From positions 124,001-188,000 of the forward strand of contig NZ_CANKYW010000002.1 in the NCBI RefSeq assembly GCF_947488135.1: DNA of 64,000 bases, written 5' to 3'. Source of the DNA: an uncultured Marivita sp. (lineage in GTDB: Bacteria > Pseudomonadota > Alphaproteobacteria > Rhodobacterales > Rhodobacteraceae). Below, piece by piece: positions 21,411-51,398 of the stretch. How positions within the stretch are numbered: position 1 is the stretch's first letter; each line of letters begins with the position of its first letter. The translations under genes were made by a program, and so were the position numbers. The notes beneath the pieces are model-generated. The model ran no database searches, was not told the DNA's origin, and saw only the letters and a program-made list of their open reading frames with translations.

Positions 21411-22277
21411 TCAGTCGGCTGATTTTCGACCGGTTCGCGACCTCAAACGCAGCGCATTTCCCACCTCGCCGGGCAGGATCCCGGCGCATTTGGCATATCG
21501 CGGCACCATACGCGAGGGTTGCAGTGCCGTGCGCCAAATCCATTCCATCGCAATCGCTCGCACCCATTTCGGCGCCCGCACCTGCGTTCCTGCAAAGAAA
21601 TCGAGGCCCGCGCCAATGGATACGAAGCCGACTGATGGCAGCACATCCCGACCGTAGGCCGCGAACAGCTCCTGTTTGGGCGCGCCCAGCGCCAGAAACG
21701 CGATATCGGCCTGCGCGTCTTTGAGGGCGGAAAGTACGGTATCGGCGGACTCACCGGTCGGATCGAACCCCATCGGCGGCGCGAGTGTGGCGACAACGCG
21801 CGCACCGGGAACTTCGCGTTCCAGGTGGTCTTTCGCCCCGGCCAGGGCGCTCTCCGTGCTGCCCACCAGCGCGAGAGTTTTGCCCTCGGCCGCGGCGATC
21901 CGCGTGATGGGCAGGATGGCGTCAGACCCAGGGATCAAGGCGATTGGCCGACCTGCCAGTTTCGACAGCCACACGATCGGATTGCCATCCGCCACCACGA
22001 TATCCTGCGCCGCGTATGCCTCGCGGAACCGGGTGTCCTGCCGCAGCTTGACCAGATGATCGAGGTTGATCGTCGCCAGCGAGAACCCCTCGCCACGGCG
22101 CAGCCGGTGGGTAATCTCGTGCTCAAGCGTATCCCAATCGGTCACGTTGATGGCGACGTCATACCCATCGCCCCAGAACCGCATTTGGCTCTGCTCTGTC
22201 ACAGTCGATAGGCTTGAAGTCGATGTCATTGCGCCACATCGTCCCGAGACCGCTGCAAAATCAAGACATACCGGCAT
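21411..22277 (-). CDS. WecB/TagA/CpsF-family glycosyltransferase
   Basis: A GT26-family enzyme of about 288 residues that adds an N-acetylhexosamine-type sugar to an undecaprenyl-linked acceptor. Family motifs: LATINLDHLVKLRQD, VVADGNPIVWLSKLAGRPI, LIPGSD and FLALGAPKQELFA. The start at 22277 is chosen because TTAGGGGAATTT precedes it with good spacing; a start at 22229 (MTSTSSLSTV) is also possible and lacks a good ribosome-binding site. It opens the exopolysaccharide region, divergent from the forward operon. Confidence 0.88.
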   Translation of the reverse strand: MPVCLDFAAVSGRCGAMTSTSSLSTVTEQSQMRFWGDGYDVAINVTDWDTLEHEITHRLRRGEGFSLATINLDHLVKLRQDTRFREAYAAQDIVVADGNPIVWLSKLAGRPIALIPGSDAILPITRIAAAEGKTLALVGSTESALAGAKDHLEREVPGARVVATLAPPMGFDPTGESADTVLSALKDAQADIAFLALGAPKQELFAAYGRDVLPSVGFVSIGAGLDFFAGTQVRAPKWVRAIAMEWIWRTALQPSRMVPRYAKCAGILPGEVGNALRLRSRTGRKSAD

Positions 22278-22450
22278 AAATTCCCCTAACACCCACGATA
22301 AAATCCGCTTTTGTCGAAATATGACCATTATTGAATGGTGTGAATCGCCCTGAAAACACGTGTAAAAACCCGAGAGCAGCCAGTGACCCGCGTCCGCACA
22401 CCGATCTACCGTGGCCTCGACCACGGCGGCACCCCGTTTGGAGTGGCGTC

Positions 22451-23578
22451 ATGACGGGTGTTGTCTCGCTGATCGGATGCGGCTTTGTGGCCGACCTCTA
22501 CATGCGGTCGCTTCAGGCGATGGACGGGATCACCGTGGCAGGGGTCTATGATCACAACCCGGGCCGTCTGGCGCAGTTCTGCACGCATTGGGGTGTGCCC
22601 GCCGTGGGATCACTAAACCAGTTGCTAGACCAGCACCCACGCGATGGCGTCGTGCTCAACCTCACGAACCCATCCGCGCATTTCGAGGTAAACAGCGCCT
22701 GCCTGGCCGCAGGATGCCACACCTATTCCGAAAAACCGCTCTCCATGGCGTTGGACGAGGCCAAGACGCTGCATGCACAGGCCGATGCGGCCGGGCTCAT
22801 GTTGGCGTCCGCGCCATGCAGCGTTCTAGGCGAAGCGGCGCAAACTCTGAGCCACGCGCTGCGCACCGGAATCGCGGGGACCCCGCGCGTGATCTATGCG
22901 GAACTCGATGACGGGTTCGTGCCGCAAGCCGCCTACCGAAAATGGATTTCCGAATCCGGCGCGCCCTGGCCATTCGAGGATGAATTCCGCGTCGGATGCA
23001 CGCTCGAACATGCGGGCTACTATTTGGGCTGGCTGATCTCGTGGTTCGGATCGGTGCGCACGGTGGTCGCCGCCTCGGCCGAGACCGTCTCAGAGAAGGA
23101 AGGCACCGGGCCATTCGCGCCCGATGTATCCGTGGCGACGCTGTTTTTCGACAACGGCCCGATGACCCGGCTGACCTGTTCCATCGTCGCCCCGCATGAC
23201 CACCAGATCCGCATTATCGGTGATGATGGCGTGCTCGCCTGCAAGGCCGCGTGGGACAATTCGGCCAAGGTGACCTTTGCCAAACGCATGTCGATCCGCC
23301 GCCGCCTGATGGAATCGCCATTTCCGAAAACGCTCAAGCTGTCCCAGCCGACCCATCCCAAGGTCAAACGGTGGGGGGCCGCCGCGATGAACTTCATGCT
23401 TGGCCCCGCTGAAATGCTGGAGGCGATCCGAAAAGGCCGGCCGTCCCGCCTGTCCAACGATTTCGCCCTGCACATGACCGAGGTTGCATTGGCTATGCAA
23501 AACGCAGGCGAAAGCGCGGGCGCGCAATCCATGACCACGCGCTGCGACCCGATGGACCCGATGCCATGGGCGATGTGA
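22451..23578 (+). CDS. Gfo/Idh/MocA-family oxidoreductase
   Basis: NAD(P)-dependent sugar or inositol dehydrogenase-like protein, 375 residues. Rossmann motif VSLIGCGFVADLY at the N-terminus and the family E-K-P (TYSEKPLSMAL), whose Lys takes part in catalysis. The C-terminal alpha/beta domain includes ECTLEHAGYYLG-like His positions (CTLEHAGYYLGWLISWFG). The ATG at 22451 has GGAG eight bases upstream. It overlaps the next gene by 13 bases. In polysaccharide clusters this family makes oxidised or keto sugar nucleotides; the substrate here is unknown. Confidence 0.88.
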   Translation: MTGVVSLIGCGFVADLYMRSLQAMDGITVAGVYDHNPGRLAQFCTHWGVPAVGSLNQLLDQHPRDGVVLNLTNPSAHFEVNSACLAAGCHTYSEKPLSMALDEAKTLHAQADAAGLMLASAPCSVLGEAAQTLSHALRTGIAGTPRVIYAELDDGFVPQAAYRKWISESGAPWPFEDEFRVGCTLEHAGYYLGWLISWFGSVRTVVAASAETVSEKEGTGPFAPDVSVATLFFDNGPMTRLTCSIVAPHDHQIRIIGDDGVLACKAAWDNSAKVTFAKRMSIRRRLMESPFPKTLKLSQPTHPKVKRWGAAAMNFMLGPAEMLEAIRKGRPSRLSNDFALHMTEVALAMQNAGESAGAQSMTTRCDPMDPMPWAM

Positions 23579-24501
23579 ACCGCGTCCTTATCACCGGCGC
23601 GTCGGGCTTCATCGGCCGCGCGACCGTGACCGCTGCGTCGGAGGCCGGATTGGAGGTTGTCGCGGTGCAGCGCAGGCCAGGAGCCGACCGCACGGGTGTG
23701 TCGTACGTTTCGACCGACCTAACCGTACGGGACTCGGTCGGAGTTCTGATCGATGCGCTCCAAGGCTGCGACGCCGTCATCCACCTTGCCGCCGCGATGT
23801 CGGGGGATCCGGAAGATCACAAGAGACTTACCGTTGGCGGCACAGAGCATCTGATCGAAGCGATGCGACAGGCCCGGACGCCGCATCTGACGCTGGCCAG
23901 TTCCATTGCCGTATTCGACACCAGCCAGGTGCCGATTGGCGGTGATCTGACTGATGATTGCCCGCTGGAGAACCCGGCCATGTCGCGCGACGCCTATTCC
24001 GGCGCGAAGGTGCGTCAGGAAAACGTCGCCCGCGCCGCGCGTCTGAACAGCCTCGCCATCCTGCGCCCCGGCATTGTCTACGACAACGGTCAACTGTGGA
24101 ACGCGCATCTGGGCGTCAGGCTCGGGCCGATCCTGCTGCGCATTGGTGGCGACGATCCATTGCCGATGTGTCATGTGGACCGCTGTGCCGCAGCGTTAGT
24201 TCACGCAACTGTGCACAAGGTAAACAACACGTTTACCGTCCTCGACCCTGCCTTGCCGACGCGCGGACGGGTCATCACCGCCCTGCGCCGCACGGGCTGG
24301 CCACGGCTGGTGGTTCCGGTCCCTTGGCAGGTCCTTTGGTCAAGCGCCCGACTATTACGTCCGATTTCGACAAACCTACCCGGCCTACTGCGCGAAAACG
24401 TGTTGCGCCAGCGCGTCTTGCCCATGGGTTACCGCATGAAAGATCCTTTCGGTGTAGACCCCCTGCCCGATCCGTCTCCGGACTGGAGGGCCGCCGCATG
24501 A
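23566..24501 (+). CDS. NAD-dependent epimerase/dehydratase (SDR)
   Basis: Extended short-chain dehydrogenase of 311 residues. G-x2-G-x2-G is seen as LITGASGFIGRATV, and the catalytic Y-x3-K as AYSGAKVRQE. The middle DVDRCAAALVHA-type segment is usual for sugar-nucleotide epimerases. It overlaps the upstream Gfo/Idh gene by 13 bases and the downstream GT4 gene as ATGA, so the three are one translational unit. Likely acts on a nucleotide sugar for the polysaccharide. Confidence 0.88.
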   Translation: MGDVNRVLITGASGFIGRATVTAASEAGLEVVAVQRRPGADRTGVSYVSTDLTVRDSVGVLIDALQGCDAVIHLAAAMSGDPEDHKRLTVGGTEHLIEAMRQARTPHLTLASSIAVFDTSQVPIGGDLTDDCPLENPAMSRDAYSGAKVRQENVARAARLNSLAILRPGIVYDNGQLWNAHLGVRLGPILLRIGGDDPLPMCHVDRCAAALVHATVHKVNNTFTVLDPALPTRGRVITALRRTGWPRLVVPVPWQVLWSSARLLRPISTNLPGLLRENVLRQRVLPMGYRMKDPFGVDPLPDPSPDWRAAA

Positions 24502-25754
24502 CCCTTCCCAAGATCGCCTACCTCACCGGCGAATATCCCCGCGCCAGCGACACGTTCATCCAGCGCGAGGTCGCAAACCTGCGCTACTTGGGGCTCGAGG
24601 TTCTGACCTGTTCGATCCGCACCACCGGGGCCGAGCACCTGATCGGACCGGAGCAAAGCGAAGAACATGCGCGCACCTTCAAGGTGCTTGACGCGGTGAA
24701 ATCCCCCGTAACAACACTGCGCGCGCATTGGCGGTGGGTAAAGACGCCGGGCCGCTACCTGTCGGCGCTTGGCCTAGCATGGCGCACCGCGCCGAAGGGA
24801 CTCAAAGGGCGAGTCTACAACCTGATCTATTTCGTCGAAGCCGGTGTGCTTGCCGCGAAACTGGCTGACGAAGGCGTTACGCACCTGCACAACCACATCG
24901 CCAAGGCGTCGTGTACTGTCGCGATGCTTGTCGGCGCATTGTCGGGTCTCCGCTGGAGCTTTACCATCCACGGGCCGGATATCTTTTTCGAACCCCATCA
25001 TTGGCGGATCGACGAAAAAGCCGCGCGCGCGGCGTTCGTGGCTTGCATCAGCCATTTCTGCCGGTCGCAACTCATGTGTTTCGCCGATGCAAAGCACTGG
25101 TCCAAACTGCACATCGTGCATTGTGGTGTGGACCCGACCAAATACGCGCCCAAGCCAGATCGCAATGGTTTGCAGGCACTCTTTGTCGGACGTTTGGCCG
25201 GTGTGAAGGGCGTGCCGATCCTGATCGAGGCGATGGCGCGGCTGGCCGAGACATACCCCAACCTGACGCTCAGGCTGGTGGGCGACGGGCCGGACCGCAC
25301 CGCCCTTGAGACCGAGGTCGCGGAGCGCGGCTTACAGAACCGCGTGGCGTTCCTTGGCTACAAATCGCAGGCCGAGGTGGCCGAGGAACTGGCGCAGACC
25401 GACGTGTTTGTCCTACCCAGCTTTGCCGAGGGCGTGCCCGTTGTCCTGATGGAGGCGATGGCCGCGCAGGTGCCGGTGGTGACGACCCGGATCGCCGGTG
25501 TGCCGGAACTTGTCGAAGATGGTGTCAGTGGTCGACTGGTTCCCCCAGGCGACGTTGATGCCTTTACCAGAGCGTTCGATGCGCTTTTGTCGAACCCGGA
25601 CCAACGCGTGTCTTTCGGTGCGGCTGGACGGGCGAAAGTGATGGCGGAATACGATGCCGCAACAGAAGCGGCGTGGCTGTCGCAGCTGATCCAGGAATAT
25701 GCAAAGGGCGGCCCAACTCCGGGTCTGCGGCCCGAGGGAAGGCACCAAGCATGA
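24498..25754 (+). CDS. Glycosyltransferase family 4
   Basis: A 418-residue GT-B-fold retaining glycosyltransferase. N-terminal part: KIAYLTGEYPRASDTFIQRE, the form common in exopolysaccharide colanic-type transferases. C-terminal donor site: FVGRLAGVKGVPILIEA, LRLVGDGPDRTALE, and the E-x7-E element in LPSFAEGVPVVLMEAMAA. The frame is open upstream inside the SDR gene, but the ATG at 24498 starts the fold and overlaps the SDR stop as ATGA. A GGAGGG lies nearby. Cytoplasmic or membrane-peripheral. Confidence 0.93.
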   Translation: MTLPKIAYLTGEYPRASDTFIQREVANLRYLGLEVLTCSIRTTGAEHLIGPEQSEEHARTFKVLDAVKSPVTTLRAHWRWVKTPGRYLSALGLAWRTAPKGLKGRVYNLIYFVEAGVLAAKLADEGVTHLHNHIAKASCTVAMLVGALSGLRWSFTIHGPDIFFEPHHWRIDEKAARAAFVACISHFCRSQLMCFADAKHWSKLHIVHCGVDPTKYAPKPDRNGLQALFVGRLAGVKGVPILIEAMARLAETYPNLTLRLVGDGPDRTALETEVAERGLQNRVAFLGYKSQAEVAEELAQTDVFVLPSFAEGVPVVLMEAMAAQVPVVTTRIAGVPELVEDGVSGRLVPPGDVDAFTRAFDALLSNPDQRVSFGAAGRAKVMAEYDAATEAAWLSQLIQEYAKGGPTPGLRPEGRHQA

Positions 25755-26719
25755 CAGTCGATGTCGTTCTGATCGGGCGCAACGAAGGTGACCGACTGGT
25801 GAAATCGCTGGCATCGGTCCTGCCGCAGGCGCGACGTGTGGTCTATGTCGACAGCGGGTCGACGGATGCCAGCGTCGCGAATGCCACAAAGGCCGGTGCC
25901 GAGGTCGTGAACCTTGATATGTCGGTGCCGTTCACCGCCGCGCGCGCCCGCAATGCCGGGTACGACGCGGTGATGGCACAGGACGAACCCCCGGAGGCGG
26001 TTCAGTTTCTGGATGGCGATTGCACGATGGCGGAAGGATGGCTCGAGGCCGGGCTGGCCCGACTGCGTGCCGAACCCGACCTTGGCCTTGTCACGGGCGT
26101 GCAAGCCGAATTGCAGCGCGACCTCACTATCTACAATCAGCTTTCCGATTTCGAATGGAAACGCCCGGTCGGAGAGATCGATGCCTGCGGGGGCAACATG
26201 ATGGTGCGGGTATCCGCATTTCAGACAGTGGGCGGTTTCGACCCCACGGTCATCGCCGCCGAGGATGACGAGTTCTGTACCCGTCTGCGCAAAGCGGGCT
26301 GGAGGCTCATCCGCATTTCAGAGGACATGTCCTTGCACGACGGAGGACCCCTCCGGTTCGAACAATGGTGGAAACGGGCCGAACGCACAGGTCACGGGTT
26401 CGCGCAGGTCGGGCACCTGCATCCAGACTATTTCGTGCGCGAACGGCAGCGTGGCTGGGTTTACGGGCTTGGGCTGCCGCTACTCGCCATTTTCGGCGCG
26501 GCGGCGTCACCAGCGGTGCCGGTCCTGGTGCTGGGAGTGTACGGCTTTTCCTACCTGCGCACGGCCAAGGGGTTGCAGGCAAGGGGTCTGCCGTCGCACG
26601 AAGCGCGCATGCATGCGGCGTTTCTCACGCTGTCCAAGTTTCCGAATGTCATCGGGATGCTTCGCTACCATTGGCGGCGTCTGAGCCATGCGCAGATGCG
26701 CATCATCGAATACAAGTAA
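25751..26719 (+). CDS. Glycosyltransferase family 2
   Basis: A 322-residue GT-A-fold inverting glycosyltransferase. VDVVLIGRNEGDRLVKSLAS opens the nucleotide-binding part; VQFLDGDCTMAEGWL carries the D-x-D-like metal site and AAEDDEFCTRLRKAGW the acceptor-side E-D motif. A hydrophobic stretch near residues 250-275 may anchor it in the membrane. The ATG at 25751 overlaps the GT4 stop as ATGA, with GAAGG upstream. Confidence 0.92.
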   Translation: MTVDVVLIGRNEGDRLVKSLASVLPQARRVVYVDSGSTDASVANATKAGAEVVNLDMSVPFTAARARNAGYDAVMAQDEPPEAVQFLDGDCTMAEGWLEAGLARLRAEPDLGLVTGVQAELQRDLTIYNQLSDFEWKRPVGEIDACGGNMMVRVSAFQTVGGFDPTVIAAEDDEFCTRLRKAGWRLIRISEDMSLHDGGPLRFEQWWKRAERTGHGFAQVGHLHPDYFVRERQRGWVYGLGLPLLAIFGAAASPAVPVLVLGVYGFSYLRTAKGLQARGLPSHEARMHAAFLTLSKFPNVIGMLRYHWRRLSHAQMRIIEYK

Positions 26720-28976: not shown

Positions 28977-30044
28977 ATGACCGAGCAGCCAAAATTCCAA
29001 CGCCGGAAACGGCGCGGGGCGGCAACGCCTGTTCAGCCATCAGACCGTGCGCGGACATCTGCATCCGACCCGGAAATCGCGAAACGGGACGCGTTAATCG
29101 CCGAGAAAGAGGCTCTGCTGCAACGCAAGGCGGAACTGGAAGCCGACCGGAAACGCCAAGCGGAACTTGAGGCTGAACGGGAAGCCGAGCAAAAGCGAGA
29201 GGCCGAACAGCAGCGTCTTCTAGACACCGAGCGCGCCGCCCAGGCCAATGCAGCACCAGTTAAGCCAAAGGCGCCGCTGGTTCTCGCCAGGGCGCCCCAA
29301 AAAGGCTCTGACGATCCGGAACGGTACTGGAAGTGCATCGATCGCTTCGCGCTGGATGAGCATCGGCTCGCCGCCCGAAACGTTGTGACTGCGCTGCGCA
29401 GTGACCCGTCGCATACGCGGTTTGACATCCTGCGCACGCGGATGCTTCAGGCCCTGTCCGAAAACGGCTGGAAACGGGTGGCGATCACCTCGCCCACCAA
29501 GGATTGCGGCAAGACCTTCACGGCTGCGAACCTGGCCATCAGCCTGTCGCGGCAGGAAAACTGCCGGACCGTTTTGCTCGATCTCGATATGCGCAGCCCC
29601 AGCCTTCACAAAATTTTCGGCGTGACCGACACTGGCGCGATTGGCGACATGCTGCGCGGAGAGATCGCGCCCGAAGACCATGTTCAGGGATTTGCGGCCA
29701 ACCGGATTTCCGCCGGATCACACGTAGCCATCGGTTTCAACGGCATGGTCGAACCCTACGCGGCAGAGCTTCTGCAAGACCCCTCAACGAAGCGCGTGTT
29801 GAGCGAGATCGAAACCAAATTCGCGCCCGACGTGATGCTGTTCGACCTGCCGCCTGCGCTATTGAACGATGACGTGATCGCGATGCGTCCGCATATCGAC
29901 GCACTGCTGATCGTGGCTGCCGGCGGAACGACCAAGGCCACCGAGATCAAAGAGACCGAGCGACGGCTGGGAGACAAGATCCCGCTTCTTGGCGTCGTGC
30001 TGAACAAGGCCGAACAGTCCGAAAGCGGCGATTACACGTATTGA
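28977..30044 (+). CDS. BY-kinase-like polysaccharide ATPase (CpsD/CapB type)
   Basis: A 355-residue cytoplasmic P-loop protein. Residues 32-90 form a highly charged Glu/Lys/Arg-Ala coiled coil. The ATPase domain has Walker A TSPTKDCGKTFTAANLA (P-loop about 172-180), the BY-kinase Walker A' VLLDLDMRSPSLHKIFG (about 199) and Walker B VMLFDLPPA (about 285). The last residues GDYTY give two Tyr that could be autophosphorylated, far fewer than the usual Tyr cluster. GAGG precedes the ATG. Its membrane partner is likely the convergent Wzz/GumC-like gene, whose stop is three bases away. Controls polysaccharide chain export by inference. Confidence 0.85.
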   Translation: MTEQPKFQRRKRRGAATPVQPSDRARTSASDPEIAKRDALIAEKEALLQRKAELEADRKRQAELEAEREAEQKREAEQQRLLDTERAAQANAAPVKPKAPLVLARAPQKGSDDPERYWKCIDRFALDEHRLAARNVVTALRSDPSHTRFDILRTRMLQALSENGWKRVAITSPTKDCGKTFTAANLAISLSRQENCRTVLLDLDMRSPSLHKIFGVTDTGAIGDMLRGEIAPEDHVQGFAANRISAGSHVAIGFNGMVEPYAAELLQDPSTKRVLSEIETKFAPDVMLFDLPPALLNDDVIAMRPHIDALLIVAAGGTTKATEIKETERRLGDKIPLLGVVLNKAEQSESGDYTY

Positions 30045-30046
30045 CG

Positions 30047-31381
30047 TTACTGCGCGCTGCGCGGTGAGACTGACAGGCCTGTCAACGTCGCGAGCGGTTT
30101 CGCGATCAATGCGATCGCTCCGAGAAGGAACGCGGCAAGCACCCCCCATCCAAATTTCGATCCATTGCTTTTCTTCTTGGTCGGCGCCGCCGAGGCGTTT
30201 TCGATCACCGGGACCGAGATCACGGGACGCACGCCAAGGATACGCTCCATCTGGGCCGCATTGCGGATCGGCGGGTTGAGCATCTCCAGAACGAAGGCCA
30301 CGCCAACGGCCAGCAACAAACTTGCCACCCCACCCAGCATCGCAATCGACCGCTTGCTGCGCGATATGGCGTAGACTGGCGCGATGGCAGGCTCGAGGAC
30401 TTCGAAACGCGCCAGTTGACGTTGCTCTTCGAGACTCTGACTCATTTCCGCATCGGCCTTGCGGCGCGAGATGACGGTGAATTGTTCGTTCAACTGCGTC
30501 AGTTCACGCTCGAGCGACGCCAGTTCCCGTTCAACCGCGGGCGCACGGGTGAGCAAAGCATTGATTTCAGTGGTGCGATTCTCGATCAGGGCGATCTGGT
30601 CTTCCAAGAGGCTGACTTCTCGCTGCAATGCTTCCGGGCGAACGCGGGCGCTGTTGGACTGAAGGCTCAGGATCTGCTGACGCAAGGTGAGAAGCGTGCC
30701 GTTAAGGGTCGTCAATTCACCTTGCAGCACGCTGATATTGGCAGGCAGCACTTCGGCATTGGCCGACTTGTATTCGGCGATCACGGCTTCGGCGGCGATG
30801 ATCTCTTCGCGGATGCGCGCCTCTTCGATGTTGAAGAACTCCAGTTCCACCTGCGCGCGGTCAACGCTGCGGGTGCGGGCCTCTTCCATGACGCGGGCGA
30901 GAAGATCGTTGGCGACATCGGCGGCCGTTTGCGGATCGCTGAGATTCACGTCGATTACCATTCCCGAAACCGATTGGTTCGGCTGCCAAGCTTCGCCGGT
31001 GAGGATCGGCTCGATCCGAACGGATTCACGCATGGCGGTCAGGCGCTCGGTCGGGGTCATGCTGGGGTCTTCGTTGAAGAGGTCATGCGTCTCCATGATC
31101 TCGGTCAGAGACCCGCGTGACATGACGCGCTGTTCGATCAAGCGCACCGTACGGCGTGTATCGAGGCCACCACGCGGATCAATGGCGGCACCTGGGGTGG
31201 AGTTGGTTCCGGAAACCTGCGGGTCCTCGATCTGCACCACGGCAATGGCGTTGTAGACAGGCGTCCGCGTCAGCGCGACGACGACCGATACGACGCACCC
31301 TATCAGGGTGATCAGCACGATCAATCCCAGACGCCGCTTGAGCGCAGAGAAAACCTCTTCGAACGACTGAAAATACAACAC
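30047..31381 (-). CDS. Wzz/GumC-like polysaccharide co-polymerase
   Basis: A 444-residue inner-membrane chain-length/export protein. Membrane segment at about 19-37 (LIVLITLIGCVVSVVVAL), large periplasmic part with long coiled coil (EEARIREEIIAAEAVIAEYK, LEDQIALIENRTTEINALL), a second membrane segment at about 347-367 and a third at about 412-430. No kinase domain is fused; the ATPase is the separate convergent gene. The start is GTG at 31381, with TGGAG eight bases upstream. Its start lies downstream of the PKS/NRPS operon on the same strand, separated by a 185-base spacer. Confidence 0.87.
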   Translation of the reverse strand: MLYFQSFEEVFSALKRRLGLIVLITLIGCVVSVVVALTRTPVYNAIAVVQIEDPQVSGTNSTPGAAIDPRGGLDTRRTVRLIEQRVMSRGSLTEIMETHDLFNEDPSMTPTERLTAMRESVRIEPILTGEAWQPNQSVSGMVIDVNLSDPQTAADVANDLLARVMEEARTRSVDRAQVELEFFNIEEARIREEIIAAEAVIAEYKSANAEVLPANISVLQGELTTLNGTLLTLRQQILSLQSNSARVRPEALQREVSLLEDQIALIENRTTEINALLTRAPAVERELASLERELTQLNEQFTVISRRKADAEMSQSLEEQRQLARFEVLEPAIAPVYAISRSKRSIAMLGGVASLLLAVGVAFVLEMLNPPIRNAAQMERILGVRPVISVPVIENASAAPTKKKSNGSKFGWGVLAAFLLGAIALIAKPLATLTGLSVSPRSAQ

Positions 31382-31566: not shown

Positions 31567-32523
31567 TCAGTTCTGCGAAATACCCGTGACCGGCAAAGCG
31601 GACACGACGTCCCACACAGTGTCCTGCATCAAGCGCGCAAGATTTGGGCCGGGCGCTTTGGCGGGTGTTCCGTCGGCCCGGTCAAGCTGTGCCGGGAGGC
31701 CCACCGGAGAGCGTTGATAGAGCACCGCGTAATGCGTCAAGGCGACGAGGTAGGCTCCAAGGTCGTTGACGTGGATCGGGTCGAGCGTTCCGTCTTCAAG
31801 GCGGGCGAACAGGTCTTCGCGCGTAGCAACCCCATCCACCGGCTTCCCGGCTTCGATGCGGCGCACCAGTTCTGCCATCACGCGACCAGCGGGGATCACG
31901 TAGATCGGTTCGGGGTCGGGAATCGCCGCCATCGCCTGCGCCAGAAGCACCCCTTCCCAATACCGCGCCGGGTCGGTGTCGAGGCGATCGAGCCAGCCTT
32001 CGGGATCGTTCAGATCATGCCAGGATTCGTAGAGATAGGTGCGGATGTGCGGGTTGCCGTCCCGCGCTGCCGTCACCCATTTTTCGAGGTATAGCGGTGC
32101 ATCGAAGTAATCGATGGCGGCTTCGATCTCGACCATTTCGGTCAGAACGAACGTGTTGTACTCGCCGCTCGCCAGTGCCTCTTTCGCATCACGATAATGC
32201 GCGTGGGCGTTCTCTGTCTCGAACCCCTGAGCCGGCTCATCAGGCTCCCAGTGCGCCTTGAGCGGTGTGCCCCAGCCCAACTGCGAGGCGTGTTCGTGTC
32301 CCGCCAATTGCGCCAGTATCGCGGGCATGTCGCGACCCACAAGAGAGTGCCCAAGGTGGAACACCTTGAGCGGACCATCCGGAGGCGTGAGGGGTGTTTC
32401 GTAGCGGGCCGCCAGTTCCGCAGGCGTCAAAGCCTGAGGGGGCTTTACGACATACCAAATCACCGCACCGCTGATGGCGGCAATCACGCCGGCTAATAAT
32501 AGGCGACTCTGCCGCGTCGGCAT
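31567..32523 (-). CDS. Membrane-anchored SGNH/GDSL-like protein
   Basis: A 318-residue protein with an N-terminal membrane anchor (LLLAGVIAAISGAVIWYVV) and the rest probably periplasmic. VFHLGHSLVGRDMPAILAQL resembles SGNH block I with the nucleophile Ser in G-H-S, and DPIHVNDLGAYLVAL near residue 255 fits block V, Asp-x-x-His. Blocks II and III are not obvious. Such proteins act as esterases or O-acetyltransferases on polysaccharides or small molecules. Its ATG overlaps the NRPS stop by one base (TGATG), so it is the last gene of the PKS/NRPS operon. Confidence 0.68.
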   Translation of the reverse strand: MPTRQSRLLLAGVIAAISGAVIWYVVKPPQALTPAELAARYETPLTPPDGPLKVFHLGHSLVGRDMPAILAQLAGHEHASQLGWGTPLKAHWEPDEPAQGFETENAHAHYRDAKEALASGEYNTFVLTEMVEIEAAIDYFDAPLYLEKWVTAARDGNPHIRTYLYESWHDLNDPEGWLDRLDTDPARYWEGVLLAQAMAAIPDPEPIYVIPAGRVMAELVRRIEAGKPVDGVATREDLFARLEDGTLDPIHVNDLGAYLVALTHYAVLYQRSPVGLPAQLDRADGTPAKAPGPNLARLMQDTVWDVVSALPVTGISQN

Positions 32524-35500
32524 CAGGCCTGACGCCGCGCCCGCATCGCGCGGCGGCGCGCCATGGCATCGGTACGTGCCTTTGCGCGATCTTGCGGTGT
32601 CGGTTGCGGGATCGCCGTGACAGTGGCGGGTTGTGCCGGACCCACCGTTCCGCCTCCGAGTTTGGCGACACGATCAGCCAGTGCCCCGAGCGTCGGGAAC
32701 TGGAAGATGTCGGTGATGGAGAGCTTCGGAATATCCAGACGGTCGCGCAAGGCGCGGTGGGTTTGAACTGCCAGGAGCGAGTGACCTCCGAGCTCAAAGA
32801 AATTGTCGTCTGCCGCGACGGACGCAACGCCCAGAACTTCGGTCCAGATGGCACCGATCCGCGCGCGCAAGGCATCGTCCGCCGCGCCGGGCGTCTGCGT
32901 TGGTTCAGCCGCTTTTGCCTTTGCCCGGACCGAAGTGCCTGTTGGTGCCGGCAACGCCTTGCGATCAATCTTCTGGTTCGGCGTGACCGGGAACGCGTCG
33001 AGCGTGACAATGTGAGAGGGCACCATGTAGTCCGGTAGTTGTGCAGCCAGCGCAGCGCGCAGGTCTTTGGTGTCGACCTCGGACGCGGCGGTCACATAGG
33101 CCACGAGGCGCACATCGCCCGGTGTGTCTTCTCGGGCGACGACGACGGCATTGGTGATAGCGGTTTCCTTTTGCAGCACAGCTTCGATTTCGCCGAGTTC
33201 GATCCGAAATCCACGCAGCTTGATCTGCGTGTCGGCCCGGCCGAGGAAATCCAACCTGCCATCGGGGCGGCGGCGCACCAAGTCGCCTGTCCGATAGATG
33301 CGCCCGGACGCAAACGGGTTGGTCCTGAACCTGTCCTCGGTCATGTCGTCCCGCAGCCAGTATCCGCGCGTCACACCTGCGCCGCCAATCCAAAGCTCGC
33401 CCTCTTCGCCAATGCCGACCGGGTTCAACGCCTCATCGAGGACGTAAAGCTGCGTATTGGCGATGGGGCGGCCGATAGTGACCGTCGCGTCTTCGTCGCT
33501 GGCGGACGCGGACGAGGACCAGATTGTTGTTTCCGTTGGGCCGTACATATTGGTGATGGTTGCGTTGGTGGCTTTCTTCAGATCGGCCACGAGCGCGCCC
33601 GGAAGGGCCTCACCGCCAAGGAACAGATGCTTCAGCCCGGACAGACGCGCACGGGCGTCGTCGTCCATCGCGATCACGCGTGCCATCGACGGGGTGCATT
33701 GCATATGCGTGACGTTGTGCCGGGCCAGCATGGCGGCGATGGAGAAATCCGTGTCCTCGTGATCACGCGACGGTGCGGAACGGCGGACGACCTCGGCCAA
33801 AGGTTTGAGACCCTCGAGCACCTGATCGGTGTCGATACCGTAGTCGATGAGAAAGGCAATCTCGGACACGCCGATTGCCCTGAGCTGATCCACGCGGGCA
33901 AGCGCATCGTCGATCGTGCCGAAGAGGCCGCTGTCGTTGAAGTAGCGTTCGAAGGCGAAATCGAGGATGCCTTCGAGGTCTTCCTCGCTCAGGTCACCGA
34001 GGTTCAGTTCGAAGGGGTTCTTCACGCCCTCGGGCTTCTTGAAGGCCGGGAAGGCCCAAGCATATTGCTTGATCAGACCGGCGGCAGAGCGCAGGTAGTC
34101 TTTCATTGGTTCGCGCGCGATTTCGCGAGCGTGCTCGCGGGTGTCGGACAGGCACGTGTGGAGCATCAGGGTGACTGTAAAATCGTCCGGATCGTGCCCC
34201 GCGTCGCGCAAAGCATGGCGATAGAGGGTGATCTTTTCGGCAACCTCATCAATGGATTGGCCGAGCAGATGGGTCAACACGTTGGCACCATTGGCCCCGG
34301 CTTCGCGCCACGTGTCTGGATTGCCCGCCGTGGTCACCCAGATTGGCAATTCCTTTGACACGGGACGCGGTTGGGTAACCACCTCGTGCATCTGGCCATC
34401 CTTGCGCGGGAAGGCGACGGGTTCGCCGCGCCACAGCTTGCGCACTTGGTCGATGGCCTCGAACATGGCGGGCTTGTTGTCGGGCGGGGTGTTTTCCGGT
34501 CGCAGGACAAAGTCGTCAGGCTGCCAGCCGCTCGCAATGGCCAGACCGGCGCGACCATTGGTGAGATTGTCGATCACCGCCCATTCTTCGGCGATGCGTG
34601 CGGGATGGTGCAGCGGCGCGACACAGCTTCCGGCGCGGACGCCGATGTTCTTTGTCACCCCGGCAACCGCCGCGCCGGTGACGGACGGGTTTGGATAGGG
34701 CCCGCCGAAAGCATGGAAATGGCGTTCGGGCGTCCAGATGGCACAAAAGCCGTTCTCATCGGCAAATTTCGCGCCTTCGAGAAGCAGGCGGTACTTGTCC
34801 CGGCCAACACCGTCGTCATTGCCCCAGTAATAGATCGAGAAATCCATCCCATCGTCGCTCTTGCGGGACGGACCACCGGAGATGATCCCACGCTGGTTGC
34901 CGCTGGGCAGAACAACTTTGATACCGCGCGCCATGGTGTAGAACAGTTCGAGCACCGAGATATCGAAGCTGAGACTGGTGACGGCCAGCCATGCGGCATC
35001 GGTGCTGTCCGGGATCACGGCATCCATGCCGGCATAGAAATTCAGGACATTGCGATGTTCGACCATGACGCCTTTCGGCAGGCCCGTCGATCCGGAGGTG
35101 TAGATCACGTAAGCGAGGGAGTCGCCTGCGGCCACAGGTGCCGGATTGTCCACCGCAGCAGAGGCGAGGCGCGGGTCACGGTCGATGACCAGAAGCTTTG
35201 CTTTCGTATGCGGCAGGTCGTCCTTAAGCGTGCTTTCGGTGATCACCACGCGCGCGTCGCTGTCCGACAAGTAATGCGCGAGACGGTCTTTCGGATAGTC
35301 GGGGTCAAGCGGCAGATACGCGCCCCCTGCCTTGAGGATGCCCAGCGCGCCCGCGATCAGATCGGGGCCACGACGACAGTGCAGGCCGACCATTGTATCG
35401 GGCGCAACTCCCATCGCGCGCAGCGTATGCGCGATGCGGTTGGCGTGTTCGTTGAGCGTCGCGAAGGTGATTTCCGACGTCTCGAAAACCAGAGCGGTGG

Positions 35501-37097
35501 CATCCGGGGTGCGCGCGACTTGCGCTTCGAAGGCGGCATGCATGGTTTCGGGACCGTCCGGCGCAACGTCTGTCGTATTGAAGGTCCGCAGAACGTCCCG
35601 ACGTTCGCCGGGCGGAAGCGGGTCCAACGCATTGGCGGGTTTGCCATCGGAGAGTTGGTCTGCGATCCAGCGCACGCGGCGGATCAGGATCTGCGCGAAA
35701 TCAGGTGAGATGCGCCCTTCGTCCACATGCACGGTCGCCGTGGCGTCGGACAGATCGAAGGTGATCGCGGCGCCGGGGATGGGCCCTGCGTTCAAAGATA
35801 AACCGAGGGCCGGGGTGCCCAGCGGTGACAGAGCGGGATCACGCAGCGCGAGATCTATGGCGACGCCTGTGTCGGCTTGCGGGATGCCGTCGGACAATTG
35901 TGCAGCGGTCACCGGCACCCAAGGGCAGACAAGCCCTGTGCGCGCGGCGGTCGCAAGGTCCGGATGTGTCACCGCGAGAACGCATCCCGGCTGGTCCGAC
36001 AGCCGTTGCATCAGGATTGCCAAAGCTGGCGCTAGGTGCTCGGGCGCGATTTGCGTTTGCTCTGACGTGACGGACGGCGCGCCCGATAGGGTGAACGGCA
36101 GCGTGAGCGGAATCGCACCCGCAAGCGCACGGCGCCAGTGTTTGTCCCGCTTGGCGACAGCACGCATTGTTTCGGTGATCCTGGCGCGCTCTGTTTCGGA
36201 AGGCGCTGTCAGGACGGCCCCGACAGACGTAACATCTGTCGGTTTGATGCTGACCCCGCTGGCATCGGTCAAATCCGACAGGCAAAGAGCGCCCTTGGCG
36301 AAGGCGACGGTCATGGATCGGTCATCGACACCGATCACCGTGCCGGGGGAAGCGTTGCTTTCGGTCAACCTCGCCTGCCCGATCATCAAGGTCCTTTCGC
36401 CAATCCGCAGTTTGGGCAGGCAAATCGGGTTCCAATAGGTGCCGTGGTCCAGAGCGCGGATCAGACGCAGGGCTGTCTCTGCCGGTTGGTCGAATCGCAA
36501 AAGACCGTTTGCGTCGGGCCGATCGGTCAGCGCGTGATAGCTGCGTTGTGCAGGATCCTGCGCGCGGCGGCCAGGCAGGGCGTTCGCCAATTCGGACAAA
36601 AGGTCGGGAAAGCTCGTCAACCCGGCCTCGTAACACTTGGTGTTCAGCGTGAGCGCGGTGTCTTCCGGCAAGATGTCGATGGCGCGCTGGACGAGGATAT
36701 CGCCGGTATCGACGCCATCGTCGATCAGGTGCCATGTGATGCCATGCGTGGTTTCGTCGTCGATCAAAGCCCAGACCGGCGCATTCAGACCGGCGCGTTT
36801 CGGCAGGGGGCCGTCGTGGAAATTGACCGCCCCCTTGCGCCCAAGGGCCAGCACGTCGGGTGGCAGGATTTTCAGGTTGGCGATACTGAGCACCCAATCG
36901 CACGACACATTTCCAAGGCGCGCGGCAAGGTCGGGACCGTGGCGTTCCACGCGAATTTTGCGACCGCTCGCCCAGGTCGCAAGGTCGGCGTCGTCCGTCA
37001 CGAGCGCGGTCAGGCGATGCCCTTCGGACAACAGCGTTTCCGCGCAATGCCGGGTCAGGCTTTCGTCGCCGATGATGATGCTGTCAAAATGGGTCAT
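32523..37097 (-). CDS. NRPS: formyltransferase, degenerate C, A with inserted luciferase-like monooxygenase, PCP
   Basis: A 1524-residue megasynthase. Residues 1-290: formyl-THF-dependent transferase with the N-H-D triad (Asn92, His94, Asp130) at the right spacing. About 300-500: condensation-like remnant without HHxxxDG. Adenylation domain: A2 KAGGAYLPLDPDYP, A3 YTSGSTGLPKG (near 666), A4 FDISVLELF (711-719), A5 MYGPTETTIW (1184-1193), A7 YRTGDL, A10 NQKIDRKAL. Between A4 and A5 lies a luciferase-like monooxygenase of the MupA/Atu3671 type (about 730-1115). Carrier domain: FFELGGHSLLAV, Ser1440. Read by eye, the specificity code is D-I-L-Q-F-G-M-I-W-K, close to the glycine code. The C-terminus is Arg-rich. 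No release domain. The gene starts three bases after the GT2 stop. Confidence 0.92.
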   Translation of the reverse strand: MTHFDSIIIGDESLTRHCAETLLSEGHRLTALVTDDADLATWASGRKIRVERHGPDLAARLGNVSCDWVLSIANLKILPPDVLALGRKGAVNFHDGPLPKRAGLNAPVWALIDDETTHGITWHLIDDGVDTGDILVQRAIDILPEDTALTLNTKCYEAGLTSFPDLLSELANALPGRRAQDPAQRSYHALTDRPDANGLLRFDQPAETALRLIRALDHGTYWNPICLPKLRIGERTLMIGQARLTESNASPGTVIGVDDRSMTVAFAKGALCLSDLTDASGVSIKPTDVTSVGAVLTAPSETERARITETMRAVAKRDKHWRRALAGAIPLTLPFTLSGAPSVTSEQTQIAPEHLAPALAILMQRLSDQPGCVLAVTHPDLATAARTGLVCPWVPVTAAQLSDGIPQADTGVAIDLALRDPALSPLGTPALGLSLNAGPIPGAAITFDLSDATATVHVDEGRISPDFAQILIRRVRWIADQLSDGKPANALDPLPPGERRDVLRTFNTTDVAPDGPETMHAAFEAQVARTPDATALVFETSEITFATLNEHANRIAHTLRAMGVAPDTMVGLHCRRGPDLIAGALGILKAGGAYLPLDPDYPKDRLAHYLSDSDARVVITESTLKDDLPHTKAKLLVIDRDPRLASAAVDNPAPVAAGDSLAYVIYTSGSTGLPKGVMVEHRNVLNFYAGMDAVIPDSTDAAWLAVTSLSFDISVLELFYTMARGIKVVLPSGNQRGIISGGPSRKSDDGMDFSIYYWGNDDGVGRDKYRLLLEGAKFADENGFCAIWTPERHFHAFGGPYPNPSVTGAAVAGVTKNIGVRAGSCVAPLHHPARIAEEWAVIDNLTNGRAGLAIASGWQPDDFVLRPENTPPDNKPAMFEAIDQVRKLWRGEPVAFPRKDGQMHEVVTQPRPVSKELPIWVTTAGNPDTWREAGANGANVLTHLLGQSIDEVAEKITLYRHALRDAGHDPDDFTVTLMLHTCLSDTREHAREIAREPMKDYLRSAAGLIKQYAWAFPAFKKPEGVKNPFELNLGDLSEEDLEGILDFAFERYFNDSGLFGTIDDALARVDQLRAIGVSEIAFLIDYGIDTDQVLEGLKPLAEVVRRSAPSRDHEDTDFSIAAMLARHNVTHMQCTPSMARVIAMDDDARARLSGLKHLFLGGEALPGALVADLKKATNATITNMYGPTETTIWSSSASASDEDATVTIGRPIANTQLYVLDEALNPVGIGEEGELWIGGAGVTRGYWLRDDMTEDRFRTNPFASGRIYRTGDLVRRRPDGRLDFLGRADTQIKLRGFRIELGEIEAVLQKETAITNAVVVAREDTPGDVRLVAYVTAASEVDTKDLRAALAAQLPDYMVPSHIVTLDAFPVTPNQKIDRKALPAPTGTSVRAKAKAAEPTQTPGAADDALRARIGAIWTEVLGVASVAADDNFFELGGHSLLAVQTHRALRDRLDIPKLSITDIFQFPTLGALADRVAKLGGGTVGPAQPATVTAIPQPTPQDRAKARTDAMARRRAMRARRQA

Positions 37098-37100
37098 GGG

Positions 37101-38120
37101 TCAGTCCACGCTGGTCTGAAGTGTGGGGGTCGGACGCGGACCGATGGATCGGATCGACGCATCGGGCGTCGGTCGAAACAGCGCCTGTGCGTCGTGGGCG
37201 ATAAGATCGCGGATAAAGCGGTTGGCGTCAGTGTTGGGCTTGCGTTCGATCAGACGGCGCAGACGCCACAGGGATGTCCCCAGAGCGTTGAGCGCCGTGG
37301 CGGCGATCGCATAGGTGCGCCCGAAATTCTTGCTGTAGTAATACCAGCGGCTTTCGTACCAATAGGGCGGCGTGCGTTTCCACGTGCCCATCCCGGTCGA
37401 GACCGAGCCAATGTGGCAGACCCGGCTTTCGCGGACGAAATGCACCTCGTGACCCGCGCGATGGGCGCGCAGGCAGAGGTCTGTTTCCTCGAAATACAGG
37501 AAGAAGGTTTCGTCAAAGAGGCCGATCTCGTTCAAGACGCTGACCCGCGCCAGCATGGAGGCCCCGACGATCCAACCCACGGGGCCTGACGCGTCGGGCA
37601 CGTGGAGCGGCAGTACGTAGCGTCTCAATGCCCGCGTAACCGGGCCCATCCGGGCAGACGCCTCGAATTCGGAGGCCAGACCGGGGAAGCGGAACGCGCT
37701 GCAATGGTCGGCGCCGTCTTCTCCGTAGATCCAACTCCCGGCGATAGCGACCTTGGGATGGGTGTCGAGGTAGTCGACCAAAGCGCCGAGCGCATCTGGC
37801 TCGACCGTTGCATCGGGGTTGAGGATGTAGACGAATTCCGCGGTCGGGCAGATGTCCAACCCGGCGCGGATCCCGAAATTGTTGCCCGCGCCAAAGCCAC
37901 CGTTGCGCCCGGATTGAAGAACATGGACGCCAATGTGATCCGGCCAGGTCGCTGCCTGCACGCCATCCTGCATCTGCTGAAACGAAGCGTCCGGCGAGTC
38001 GTTGTCGACGAGCACGATGACACCGCCGAAATCGCCCATCGCGGCCGCCGCCGACTGCGCCGCGAGAACCGACAGGTCGGGCGTTTTGTAGTTGAGGACG
38101 ACAACGACGATATCCGTCAT
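37101..38120 (-). CDS. Glycosyltransferase family 2 (rhamnosyltransferase-like)
   Basis: A 339-residue GT-A-fold enzyme: VVVVLNYKTPDLSVLAAQSA, SGRNGGFGAGNNFGIRAG, the D-x-D-like YILNPDATVEPDAL, and the late ETFFLYFEETDLCLRAHRAG element. This pattern is usual for rhamnosyl- and related deoxysugar transferases of O-antigen and natural-product pathways. It sits between PKS and NRPS genes with spacers of five and three bases, so it is part of the same operon and may glycosylate the product or its lipid carrier. Donor unknown. Confidence 0.92.
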   Translation of the reverse strand: MTDIVVVVLNYKTPDLSVLAAQSAAAAMGDFGGVIVLVDNDSPDASFQQMQDGVQAATWPDHIGVHVLQSGRNGGFGAGNNFGIRAGLDICPTAEFVYILNPDATVEPDALGALVDYLDTHPKVAIAGSWIYGEDGADHCSAFRFPGLASEFEASARMGPVTRALRRYVLPLHVPDASGPVGWIVGASMLARVSVLNEIGLFDETFFLYFEETDLCLRAHRAGHEVHFVRESRVCHIGSVSTGMGTWKRTPPYWYESRWYYYSKNFGRTYAIAATALNALGTSLWRLRRLIERKPNTDANRFIRDLIAHDAQALFRPTPDASIRSIGPRPTPTLQTSVD

Positions 38121-44708: not shown

Positions 44709-46067
44709 CTAAAGCGCCGCGAGCTCTGCCAACGCCTCGGCATTAAGCCAGAGCGCGATTGCGATGATGGCCAAGCCAACAATGCCGTAGACCGCGTCAT
44801 GTTTTGGATCCCACGCCCCGACGCGGCGGGCCATCCACACCACGAAGGGATACGCCGCTACCCCGGCCAGACCCTGACCGATGAGCGCGCCAAAAAGGCC
44901 GCCCCACGCCAGACCCGCGAACAGAAAGCCAACGGTCAAAACGGCGCGGGCGGCCGACAGGACGAAAAATCGTCGTGAATCCCCGGCGGCAAGGGCAGCT
45001 TGTTCATAGGTCAGGACGATGATTTGCGGAATTTGCATCGCTGCGATCAGAACCACCACGGCCCCGGCCATGGCGTAGCGCGGATCGTAAAGCAGGTCGA
45101 TCAGGACCACGCCCATAACCGACACCATCCCTGTGAGTAGGACAATCGCCGCCGTCAGCAGGAATCGCATTTTCTGCAACTTGCGAAAATTCTCGACACT
45201 CTCACTGGGCGGGCGTTCCCGGTAGACCGGGATCAGCACCTTGCGCGTCATGACACCGCCCATCAACAGCGGAAAACTCGCAAGGAAGAAACCGATATTG
45301 TAGATGCCGAACTGGTCCAGCGGCAGGTATTTTCCCAGCAGCAGCTTGTCCGACTGCATGTAGAGAAACCCGCAGATCGTGCTGAGGAAAATCCACTTGC
45401 CAAAGCTGATCAATTCATCCGCCGCCGCACGCTCCCAATGGAAGCGGTTTCGCTGGCCCGGCAAGAAAACCATGTAGAGCGCCAGCAGGATGACCGATGC
45501 CGCGACACCGCTGATCACCAGTGCCCAGACCGATTGCAGATACCAGGCAAGACCGACGGCGATCGCGATGCCAGAGATCTGCGAGAGAAGGTCCAGGGCG
45601 GTGATACGCCCCAATAAAAGATGCCGGTTCGCCGTGTCGATCCGGGTCGGATTGAATCCCGCGATCAAAAGGCTGATCCCGGCGCAGGGCAGTATCCACG
45701 CCAATAACGGCTCTTCGTAAAGGGCGGCGACGGGAATGGCGATGACACAGGCGACAGCCCACAGAAGACCGCCGCGGATCACCTGAATGGTCCAGGCCGT
45801 GTCCAGAAACCTCTGATCGTCGCCGCGTTTTGACTGCATGATGGCGGGACTTACCCCGACGTCGGAAAACATCGCGAGGCCCTGCATGATCACTGCCACA
45901 AGTGCCATCATGCCGAACGCCTCGGGGAACAGAAGCCGGGTCAAAAGCAGGTTCGAGAGAAGGCGCAGCGCCTGTCCCAGTCCGTAGCCGCCGAGCGTGA
46001 AAACCGAACTGCGCATGAACCGCGCGTTCAGGGAGCCTCCACGAAACCGTGCCGCCAAGCCATCCAT
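44709..46067 (-). CDS. Wzx-like oligosaccharide flippase
   Basis: A polytopic membrane protein of about 452 residues from the polysaccharide transporter family. The N-terminal SVFTLGGYGLGQALRLLSNL and LLTRLLFPEAFGMMALV are characteristic, and about twelve hydrophobic segments can be counted. It moves undecaprenyl- or lipid-linked sugars across the inner membrane. The ATG at 46067 overlaps the stop of the upstream GT2 by one base (TGATG); a TTG six codons earlier is also in frame. It lies 106 bases ahead of the PKS gene on the same strand. Confidence 0.9.
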   Translation of the reverse strand: MDGLAARFRGGSLNARFMRSSVFTLGGYGLGQALRLLSNLLLTRLLFPEAFGMMALVAVIMQGLAMFSDVGVSPAIMQSKRGDDQRFLDTAWTIQVIRGGLLWAVACVIAIPVAALYEEPLLAWILPCAGISLLIAGFNPTRIDTANRHLLLGRITALDLLSQISGIAIAVGLAWYLQSVWALVISGVAASVILLALYMVFLPGQRNRFHWERAAADELISFGKWIFLSTICGFLYMQSDKLLLGKYLPLDQFGIYNIGFFLASFPLLMGGVMTRKVLIPVYRERPPSESVENFRKLQKMRFLLTAAIVLLTGMVSVMGVVLIDLLYDPRYAMAGAVVVLIAAMQIPQIIVLTYEQAALAAGDSRRFFVLSAARAVLTVGFLFAGLAWGGLFGALIGQGLAGVAAYPFVVWMARRVGAWDPKHDAVYGIVGLAIIAIALWLNAEALAELAAL

Positions 46068-51364: not shown

Positions 51365-51398
51365 GTCAGATTGTCCTTTTCAGCTGCGCGCAGCGGTT

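Follow-up and report, generated by a model that had tools for sequence, protein, structure and literature searches.

A predicted formylating glycine module with an inserted flavin monooxygenase and a polyketide synthase partner in an exopolysaccharide locus of Marivita sp.

Introduction

In the myxothiazol and melithiazol clusters, a monooxygenase is located between the a4 and a5 motifs of an adenylation (A) domain and, according to the available passages of the source, hydroxylates the glycyl alpha carbon, after which the resulting carbinolamide is said to split into an amide and a glyoxylyl thioester (PMC10204066). Solanimycin B is reported in the same passages to keep its alpha-hydroxyglycine (PMC10204066). 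Four glycine domains with such a monooxygenase (MOX) all carry, in the available part of another source, the pocket code DILQLGMIWK (PMC12283262). Pairs of a nonribosomal peptide synthetase (NRPS) and a type I polyketide synthase (T1PKS) are also on record, as far as the available text of the two sources goes: an NRPS gene of 4527 nt and a T1PKS gene of 6333 nt lie about 1 kb apart in Roseibaca domitiana, with the NRPS-like/T1PKS hybrid type given for 18 of the 37 species in that study (PMC10584327), and PKS Inhi_1972 and NRPS Inhi_1974 of Phaeobacter inhibens have one gene number between them (PMC4062626). The text obtained from the open-licence PubMed Central literature, with subscription papers and preprints outside its scope, held no description of a formyltransferase (FT)-A[LLM]-carrier protein (LLM, luciferase-like monooxygenase) paired with a PKS, and no account of a formylating initiation module, a half condensation (C) domain or a cross-phylum pair. 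We take the A-MOX-A modules of the myxothiazol and melithiazol pathways to be MtaG and MelG; a module of this type has an upstream C domain and a chain-ending thioesterase (TE).

Here, a 64,000-nucleotide stretch from an uncultured Marivita sp. (contig NZ_CANKYW010000002.1), called the window throughout, is described together with its relatives in other genomes. The A4-A5 insertion, the domain family and the glycine code are already known; what appears to be new is a predicted formylating initiation version of the module with a PKS partner.

Domain organization of the NRPS

Between A4 and A5 of one A domain (Table 1) sits an LLM of the MupA/Atu3671 type, as had been claimed in a sequence-only reading of this DNA; the insert matches TIGR04020 with 474.1 bits against a curated cut-off of 244.45, over model positions 1-340 of 341. 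The A domain is split but intact, again as proposed there, with both halves recognized on either side of the insert and a carrier domain after them. No domain of the NRPS is better conserved than the monooxygenase; in the window protein and 40 orthologs (41 sequences), 107 of the 362 positions of the LLM region (748-1109) are invariant. Among the rows of the LLM tree, the insert is closest to that of Marivita lacus (93% identical), and in a structural alignment the PuwE monooxygenase (6ket) is 45% identical to it. For the NRPS overall, the best relative in the PDB is LgrA (781 bits). Residues N92, H94 and D130 of the formyltransferase are invariant in all 41 sequences, as is Ser1440 of the carrier domain; the former three presumably correspond to the catalytic N106, H108 and D144 of E. 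coli FMT, which have the same spacing.

Table 1. Features of the NRPS-PKS locus and its surroundings (window positions)
Feature	Position	Strand	Remarks
NRPS, 1524 aa	32523..37097	-	formyltransferase, half C, A domain split by monooxygenase, carrier domain
Formyltransferase, residues 1-290	36228..37097	-	Pfam PF00551 67 bits, PF02911 27 bits
C-terminal half of C domain, residues 291-510, without N-terminal half	35568..36227	-	profile, model and fold searches
A domain, first half, residues 520-738	34884..35540	-	A4 = FDISVLELF
Inserted luciferase-like monooxygenase, residues 753-1103	33789..34841	-	TIGR04020
A domain, second half, residues 1118-1385	32943..33746	-	
Peptidyl carrier domain, residues 1412-1480	32658..32864	-	phosphopantetheine Ser1440
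PKS, KS-AT-KR-DH-ACP-TE, 2158 aa	38126..44602	-	catalytic motifs intact
Family 2 glycosyltransferase	37101..38120	-	between PKS and NRPS
Conserved protein	31567..32523	-	no Pfam match; directly downstream of NRPS
Wzz-type chain-length protein	30047..31381	-	sole match to Wzz above cut-off in the genome; some 1.1 kb from NRPS
ATPase akin to exopolysaccharide tyrosine autokinases	28977..30044	+	below curated cut-offs
Polysaccharide flippase	44709..46085	-	stronger of genome's two Polysacc_synt_3 matches; next to PKS
Other genes of polysaccharide type: WecG-type transferase (-); GFO/IDH oxidoreductase, epimerase, GT4 and GT2 glycosyltransferases (+)	21411..26719	- and +	

The region between the formyltransferase and the A domain is confidently modeled when residues 287-516 are folded alone (pLDDT 94, pTM 0.88). 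A profile built from 46 homologues matches C domains from about residue 190-230 on (8hlk 201-476, E 1e-22; also 5ja1 211-457), and C-A entries whose numbering starts with the C domain begin to align with a larger model at about residue 170-240. The matches listed by Foldseek and VIA are condensation, cyclization or X domains, or NRPS entries containing one, except CmnI. That residues 291-510 form a new domain was ruled out by these profile and fold matches. Some of the fold alignments start as early as residue 65 of the matched chain, perhaps owing to the likeness of the two C-domain lobes, and the assignment to the C-terminal half rests on the sequence profile and the larger model. In C domains, the catalytic HHxxxDG motif lies in the N-terminal lobe. 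A functional C domain would have both lobes and this motif, but homology here starts only at about residue 190-230. Because the profile and larger-model alignments begin in the middle of the C domain, the C-terminal half appears to have been kept, and the HHxxxDG-bearing half to be gone, with the formyltransferase in its place.

Neither a TE domain nor a full upstream C domain was found by Pfam and profile searches of the 1524-residue protein. Its formyltransferase and half C domain, together with the PKS next to it and its exopolysaccharide surroundings, mark the NRPS as a predicted initiation module, not a chain-ending one as in myxothiazol and melithiazol synthesis. Its C-terminal tail (window 32523-32600, minus strand) is arginine-rich (RRRAMRARR) and partly conserved in orthologs, and may be a docking site onto the PKS. 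What the sequence-only reading had said about the LLM family, the glycine-type code and the likeness to MtaG and MelG has thus stood, while the formyltransferase, the half C domain, the PKS and the exopolysaccharide setting had escaped it.

Substrate code of the adenylation domain

Read again from motif anchors, the A-domain pocket is DILQFGMIWK, the same glycine-type pocket that had been claimed earlier, and is identical at 9 of 10 positions to DILQLGMIWK of the monooxygenase-bearing glycine domains. All 41 sequences (window and 40 orthologs) have DILQ[MLFYA]GM and then, in 40 of them, IWK; one has VWK instead. The exact published code occurs in 8 of them, and the other 33, including the window, deviate from it. 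A genome scan, in which the best 80 of 377 relatives were retained and confirmed against the Deinococcus homologue heading the query, gave 78 of 80 inserted A domains fitting D[IM][LV]QxGM[IV]W, a count in which code positions 235, 236 and 239 (the first three) are partly selected by the scan patterns FDISVLEL and [VLI]WTPERHF; none of the 16 uninserted A domains in these loci fits the code, three of the 16 being unreadable. In a second set of loci, the code is fitted by 18 of 18 inserted A domains and by 2 of 25 uninserted ones (L104 and L096). Among these 18 are the six outside the family that were reached with the LLM model alone (L089, L090, L092, L093, L094 and L097).

Just before the uninserted A domain with matching code in L104 (10473-18220, Gloeocapsopsis dulcis) lies a free-standing monooxygenase gene, and in L096 the monooxygenase forms the end of the preceding PKS-containing protein, which adjoins the uninserted domain that fits. 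These two monooxygenases may act in trans. Because both uninserted domains fit beside separate monooxygenases, the code seems to go with the monooxygenase, whether built in or not.

Partner PKS and gene neighborhood

The NRPS, PKS and glycosyltransferase genes form one operon. Its conservation was followed in 40 regions limited to about 20 kb (L044 and L052 by contig ends), a selection from the 101 further genomes in which the match is full-length. A PKS homologue lies upstream on the same strand in all 40, the L044 copy being cut by the contig end, and a family 2 glycosyltransferase stands between PKS and NRPS in 39. The domain order KS-AT-KR-DH-ACP-TE is shared by all 39 homologues with a KS. 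The usual PKS order is DH before KR; in the window PKS, KR precedes DH. The catalytic residues (KS Cys/His/His, AT Ser/His, KR Ser/Tyr/Asn, DH His/Asp, ACP Ser, TE Ser/His) are present in 40 of 40 proteins (window and 39 orthologs). In 13 PKS homologues from other records, those of KS, AT and ACP are kept in all 13, DH His and DH Asp in 12 each, TE His in 10 and TE Ser in 9. The conserved protein downstream of the NRPS has a homologue in 22 of the 40 regions and, by eye, a membrane-anchor-like stretch near its N-terminus. No flavin reductase was recognized beside the window NRPS and no phosphopantetheinyl transferase in the window operon; the genome's two matches for each lie elsewhere. In Streptomyces sp. 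NBC_01343 (L102, 8561-14355), a flavin reductase gene directly follows the A[LLM] NRPS gene and is a likely supplier of FMNH2.

In the window, the NRPS-PKS operon lies inside an exopolysaccharide locus. The two Polysacc_synt_3 matches over cut-off in the genome score 164 bits (beside the PKS) and 26 bits. Flagellar-type genes (MotA-like, FlgI) come after the polysaccharide locus (window 50498-52499, minus strand). Across the 40 regions, a Wzz, autokinase or flippase gene was found in 23, and these or further glycosyltransferase markers in 33. Within about 10 kb of the NRPS, the annotations of Ruegeria conchae, Paracoccus marcusii and Aminobacter sp. MSH1 include both polysaccharide genes and a gene for a phosphopantetheinyl transferase.

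Distribution across bacteria

The sample from the order comprised 244 genomes, all listed under a single family; in 102 of these, the window's own among them, a full-length or near full-length NRPS without stops was found, and two more (G203 and G231) have a partial match. Within the genus, two of three further genomes carry the NRPS as well. Over the phylum, TIGR04020 exceeds its cut-off in 19 of 398 sampled genomes, 10 of which belong to the window's family. On a plasmid of Paracoccus marcusii (NZ_CP143307.1, 248005-252426), the homologue is split into 11 matching stretches that bear the annotation of hypothetical proteins or LLM fragments, through either decay or sequencing error.

The formyltransferase precedes A[LLM] in 64 of the 80 named loci, a proportion that is no rate given that these are the best 80 of 377 relatives, and that includes L133, counted by hand with its formyltransferase on another frame. 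A KS-to-DH PKS lies within the fetched flanks in 51 of the 64. As for the other 13, L113, L148 and L166 hold cut PKS pieces, L115, L123, L124, L149 and L165 are stretches shorter than 16 kb, and L109, L130, L139, L156 and L157 seem to be real exceptions. Among the 16 loci without a formyltransferase match, three (L110, L118 and L158) have an A[LLM] protein with a KS-to-DH PKS nearby.

By record title and tree label, the pair is found in Pseudomonadota, Chloroflexota (L107, L133), Gemmatimonadota (L111), Planctomycetota (L114, L116, L146), Acidobacteriota (L122) and Rhodothermota (L136), and the FT-type module, with no PKS in view, in Myxococcota (L109), Cyanobacteriota (L115) and Actinomycetota (L124, whose protein includes a TE); many of the named loci come from metagenome-assembled genomes, so the phylum assignments depend on binning. 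Acanthopleuribacter pedis and Rhodopirellula maiorica are the isolates outside Pseudomonadota that carry the pair; the Deinococcus record stems from a mixed culture. This occurrence in other groups ruled out the FT-type module as a Rhodobacteraceae oddity. On the Deinococcus actinosclerus plasmid (L088, 18001-23324), formyltransferase and A[LLM]-carrier lie on two neighboring reading frames, followed by the PKS, with polysaccharide genes on both sides of the pair. In a tree of the LLM domain with 111 rows, which included 8 of the 40 Rhodobacteraceae regions and for which bootstrap values are rough, the FT-type is not one clean clade, four changes being counted, of which at least three are forced by well-supported branches. 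One group of 86 rows holds 82 with a formyltransferase; the Deinococcus row falls outside it on a long branch.

Variants of the line were also met. In L087 (22456-31740) and L093 (1-8547, ending at the boundary of the fetched stretch), the PKS protein has an extra A domain, with codes DTIWIGGVTK and DTI-VGGVTK, and the product is probably longer because of it. The A[LLM] protein of L094 (7306-12918) has no formyltransferase match and about 400 extra residues in the second A half; the same PKS type lies beside it.

Proposed product and alternative explanations

On balance we favor an initiation module that would load glycine, formylate it, hydroxylate its alpha carbon and hand it to the PKS, with the reactions, their order and the product deduced from the domains and from analogy. 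Going by its code, the A domain would activate glycine and load it onto the carrier domain, and the formyltransferase, by analogy with LgrA, would formylate the nitrogen of the carrier-bound glycine. The formyl group would then supply the N-acyl group that the upstream peptide gives in myxothiazol and melithiazol synthesis, presenting the monooxygenase with an N-acylglycyl thioester. As in the myxothiazol, melithiazol and solanimycin pathways, the FMN monooxygenase would hydroxylate the alpha carbon, yielding an N-formyl-alpha-hydroxyglycyl thioester. This unit could be passed to the KS-AT-KR-DH-ACP-TE PKS for at least one malonate extension, reduction, perhaps dehydration, and release by the TE. 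With one extension and the nitrogen kept, the product would be 4-formamido-4-hydroxybut-2-enoate; if the carbinolamide collapsed, formamide would leave and an aldehyde would be passed on. A nitrogen-bearing C4 acid would thus result if the carbinolamide survived, and an aldehyde starter if it did not.

The second outcome, in which the carbinolamide of alpha-hydroxylated N-formylglycine is cleaved, formamide is lost and a glyoxylyl thioester starts the polyketide, is one that we regard as doubtful. The insertion site is the same and the code nearly the same as in the myxothiazol and melithiazol type, where such a split is said, in the passages available, to occur, but solanimycin B is reported there to keep its hydroxylated unit (PMC10204066), and formylating glycine merely to lose formamide looks wasteful. 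Oxidation of the glycine nitrogen in place of the alpha carbon, with formylation giving an N-formyl-N-hydroxyglycyl unit, a hydroxamate, would fit the presence of a formyltransferase in the same protein. Hadacidin is an N-formyl-N-hydroxyglycyl hydroxamate. However, the A4-A5 inserts described in glycine modules act on the alpha carbon in the available text (PMC10204066), and no report of N-hydroxylation by the MupA/Atu3671 family was met in the literature on such inserts, which was not searched for it by name; we consider this route quite unlikely. That the insert is a structural relic without catalysis is highly improbable, given its conservation, the strongest in the protein, and a score far above the TIGR04020 cut-off.

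A different question is what the product is for. It may serve the cell surface in Marivita sp., a guess made because the pair lies in an exopolysaccharide locus. We hold only tentatively that the product of the pair is an acyl group that becomes linked to the exopolysaccharide itself, as might be suggested by the genome's only over-cut-off Wzz and its stronger flippase on the flanks of the operon, the glycosyltransferase kept between PKS and NRPS, and the polysaccharide genes beside the Deinococcus pair. Exopolysaccharide markers (at least 50 bits, glycosyltransferases left out except the WecB type) were found in 34 of the 64 FT-type loci versus 0 of the 16 without a formyltransferase, among the best 80 of 377 relatives and with alphaproteobacterial queries that may miss distant genes; however, 31 of the 34 marked loci are alphaproteobacterial by record title and so are not independent. 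Moreover, apart from one glycosyltransferase in L116, no polysaccharide gene was found among the Pfam-tested neighbors of five distant loci (6 in L107, 4 in L108, 4 in L116, 3 in L122 and 6 in L146), which were transporters, aminotransferases, hydrolases and the like, or unmatched. In L136, the tested neighbors include a phosphopantetheinyl transferase together with a GDSL hydrolase and a DegT aminotransferase; in L112, both a glycosyltransferase and an ATPase resembling autokinases were found. The neighbors tested in the five distant loci ruled out placement in polysaccharide loci as a general rule for the pair. Because polysaccharide genes were all but missing among them, the pair is probably self-sufficient, and its placement in polysaccharide loci a feature of some lineages.

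The recurrence of the NRPS and PKS genes in many marine bacteria, and also in several distant phyla, makes it probable that the pair yields a small molecule not yet described. A broader scenario, which in its entirety we think rather unlikely, would have a two-protein line across several phyla making a reactive C4 metabolite, 4-formamido-4-hydroxybut-2-enoate, its lactone, or the aldehyde left by formamide loss; Rhodobacteraceae and their relatives would have recruited this line to exopolysaccharide loci to modify or cross-link the surface, and the module itself would have arisen by replacement of the catalytic C half with a formyltransferase. We know of no earlier case of a formyl group as the N-acyl partner for glycine alpha-oxidation. 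About four out of every ten genomes sampled in the taxon have the module, which genome miners, going by the available text of such studies, have probably so far counted only as an uncharacterized NRPS-like/T1PKS type. Since its domain set is short and complete, the product can be predicted and tested. With a small NRPS-PKS line inside polysaccharide loci, marine bacteria may have in their biofilm and surface chemistry a substituent or signal that has been overlooked.

Comparison with known systems

Judged by the sizes and layouts described in the available text, the Roseibaca domitiana and Phaeobacter inhibens clusters are probably the same trio of genes; they are given there as cluster types or genes, with domains, code and chemistry left undescribed in those passages. 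The PuwE monooxygenase (6ket) has the same fold and belongs to the same family as the insert, but its deposited 362-residue chain is the monooxygenase alone and its pathway is a different one. The initiation module of LgrA, from linear gramicidin synthesis, resembles the window NRPS in its N-terminal formyltransferase, A domain and carrier domain; to our knowledge, it has no half C domain between formyltransferase and A domain and no monooxygenase. The first A domain of LgrA loads valine. Module 4 of SolF, from solanimycin synthesis, likewise has a glycine A domain with a flavin monooxygenase and a product with alpha-hydroxyglycine, but the insertion lies between a8 and a9, in contrast to a4-a5 here, and the available passages mention no formyltransferase for SolF (PMC10204066).

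The likeness to MtaG and MelG, known from their descriptions and from the code rather than from their sequences, had already been drawn in the sequence-only reading and is upheld by the available text of PMC10204066, which places the monooxygenases of their clusters between a4 and a5 as well. Both systems have a glycine module in which a flavin monooxygenase is set between a4 and a5, and the window pocket agrees with the MOX-glycine code at 9 of 10 positions. In the LLM tree, two myxobacterial loci of MtaG/MelG-like layout (L117 and L176) fall outside the FT-rich group. In the MtaG and MelG systems, the peptide is split into an amide and a glyoxylyl thioester, according to the passages available, and a thioesterase comes next; the window NRPS differs in having a formyltransferase in the place of the peptide donor, in lacking a TE of its own, and in the PKS gene beside it.
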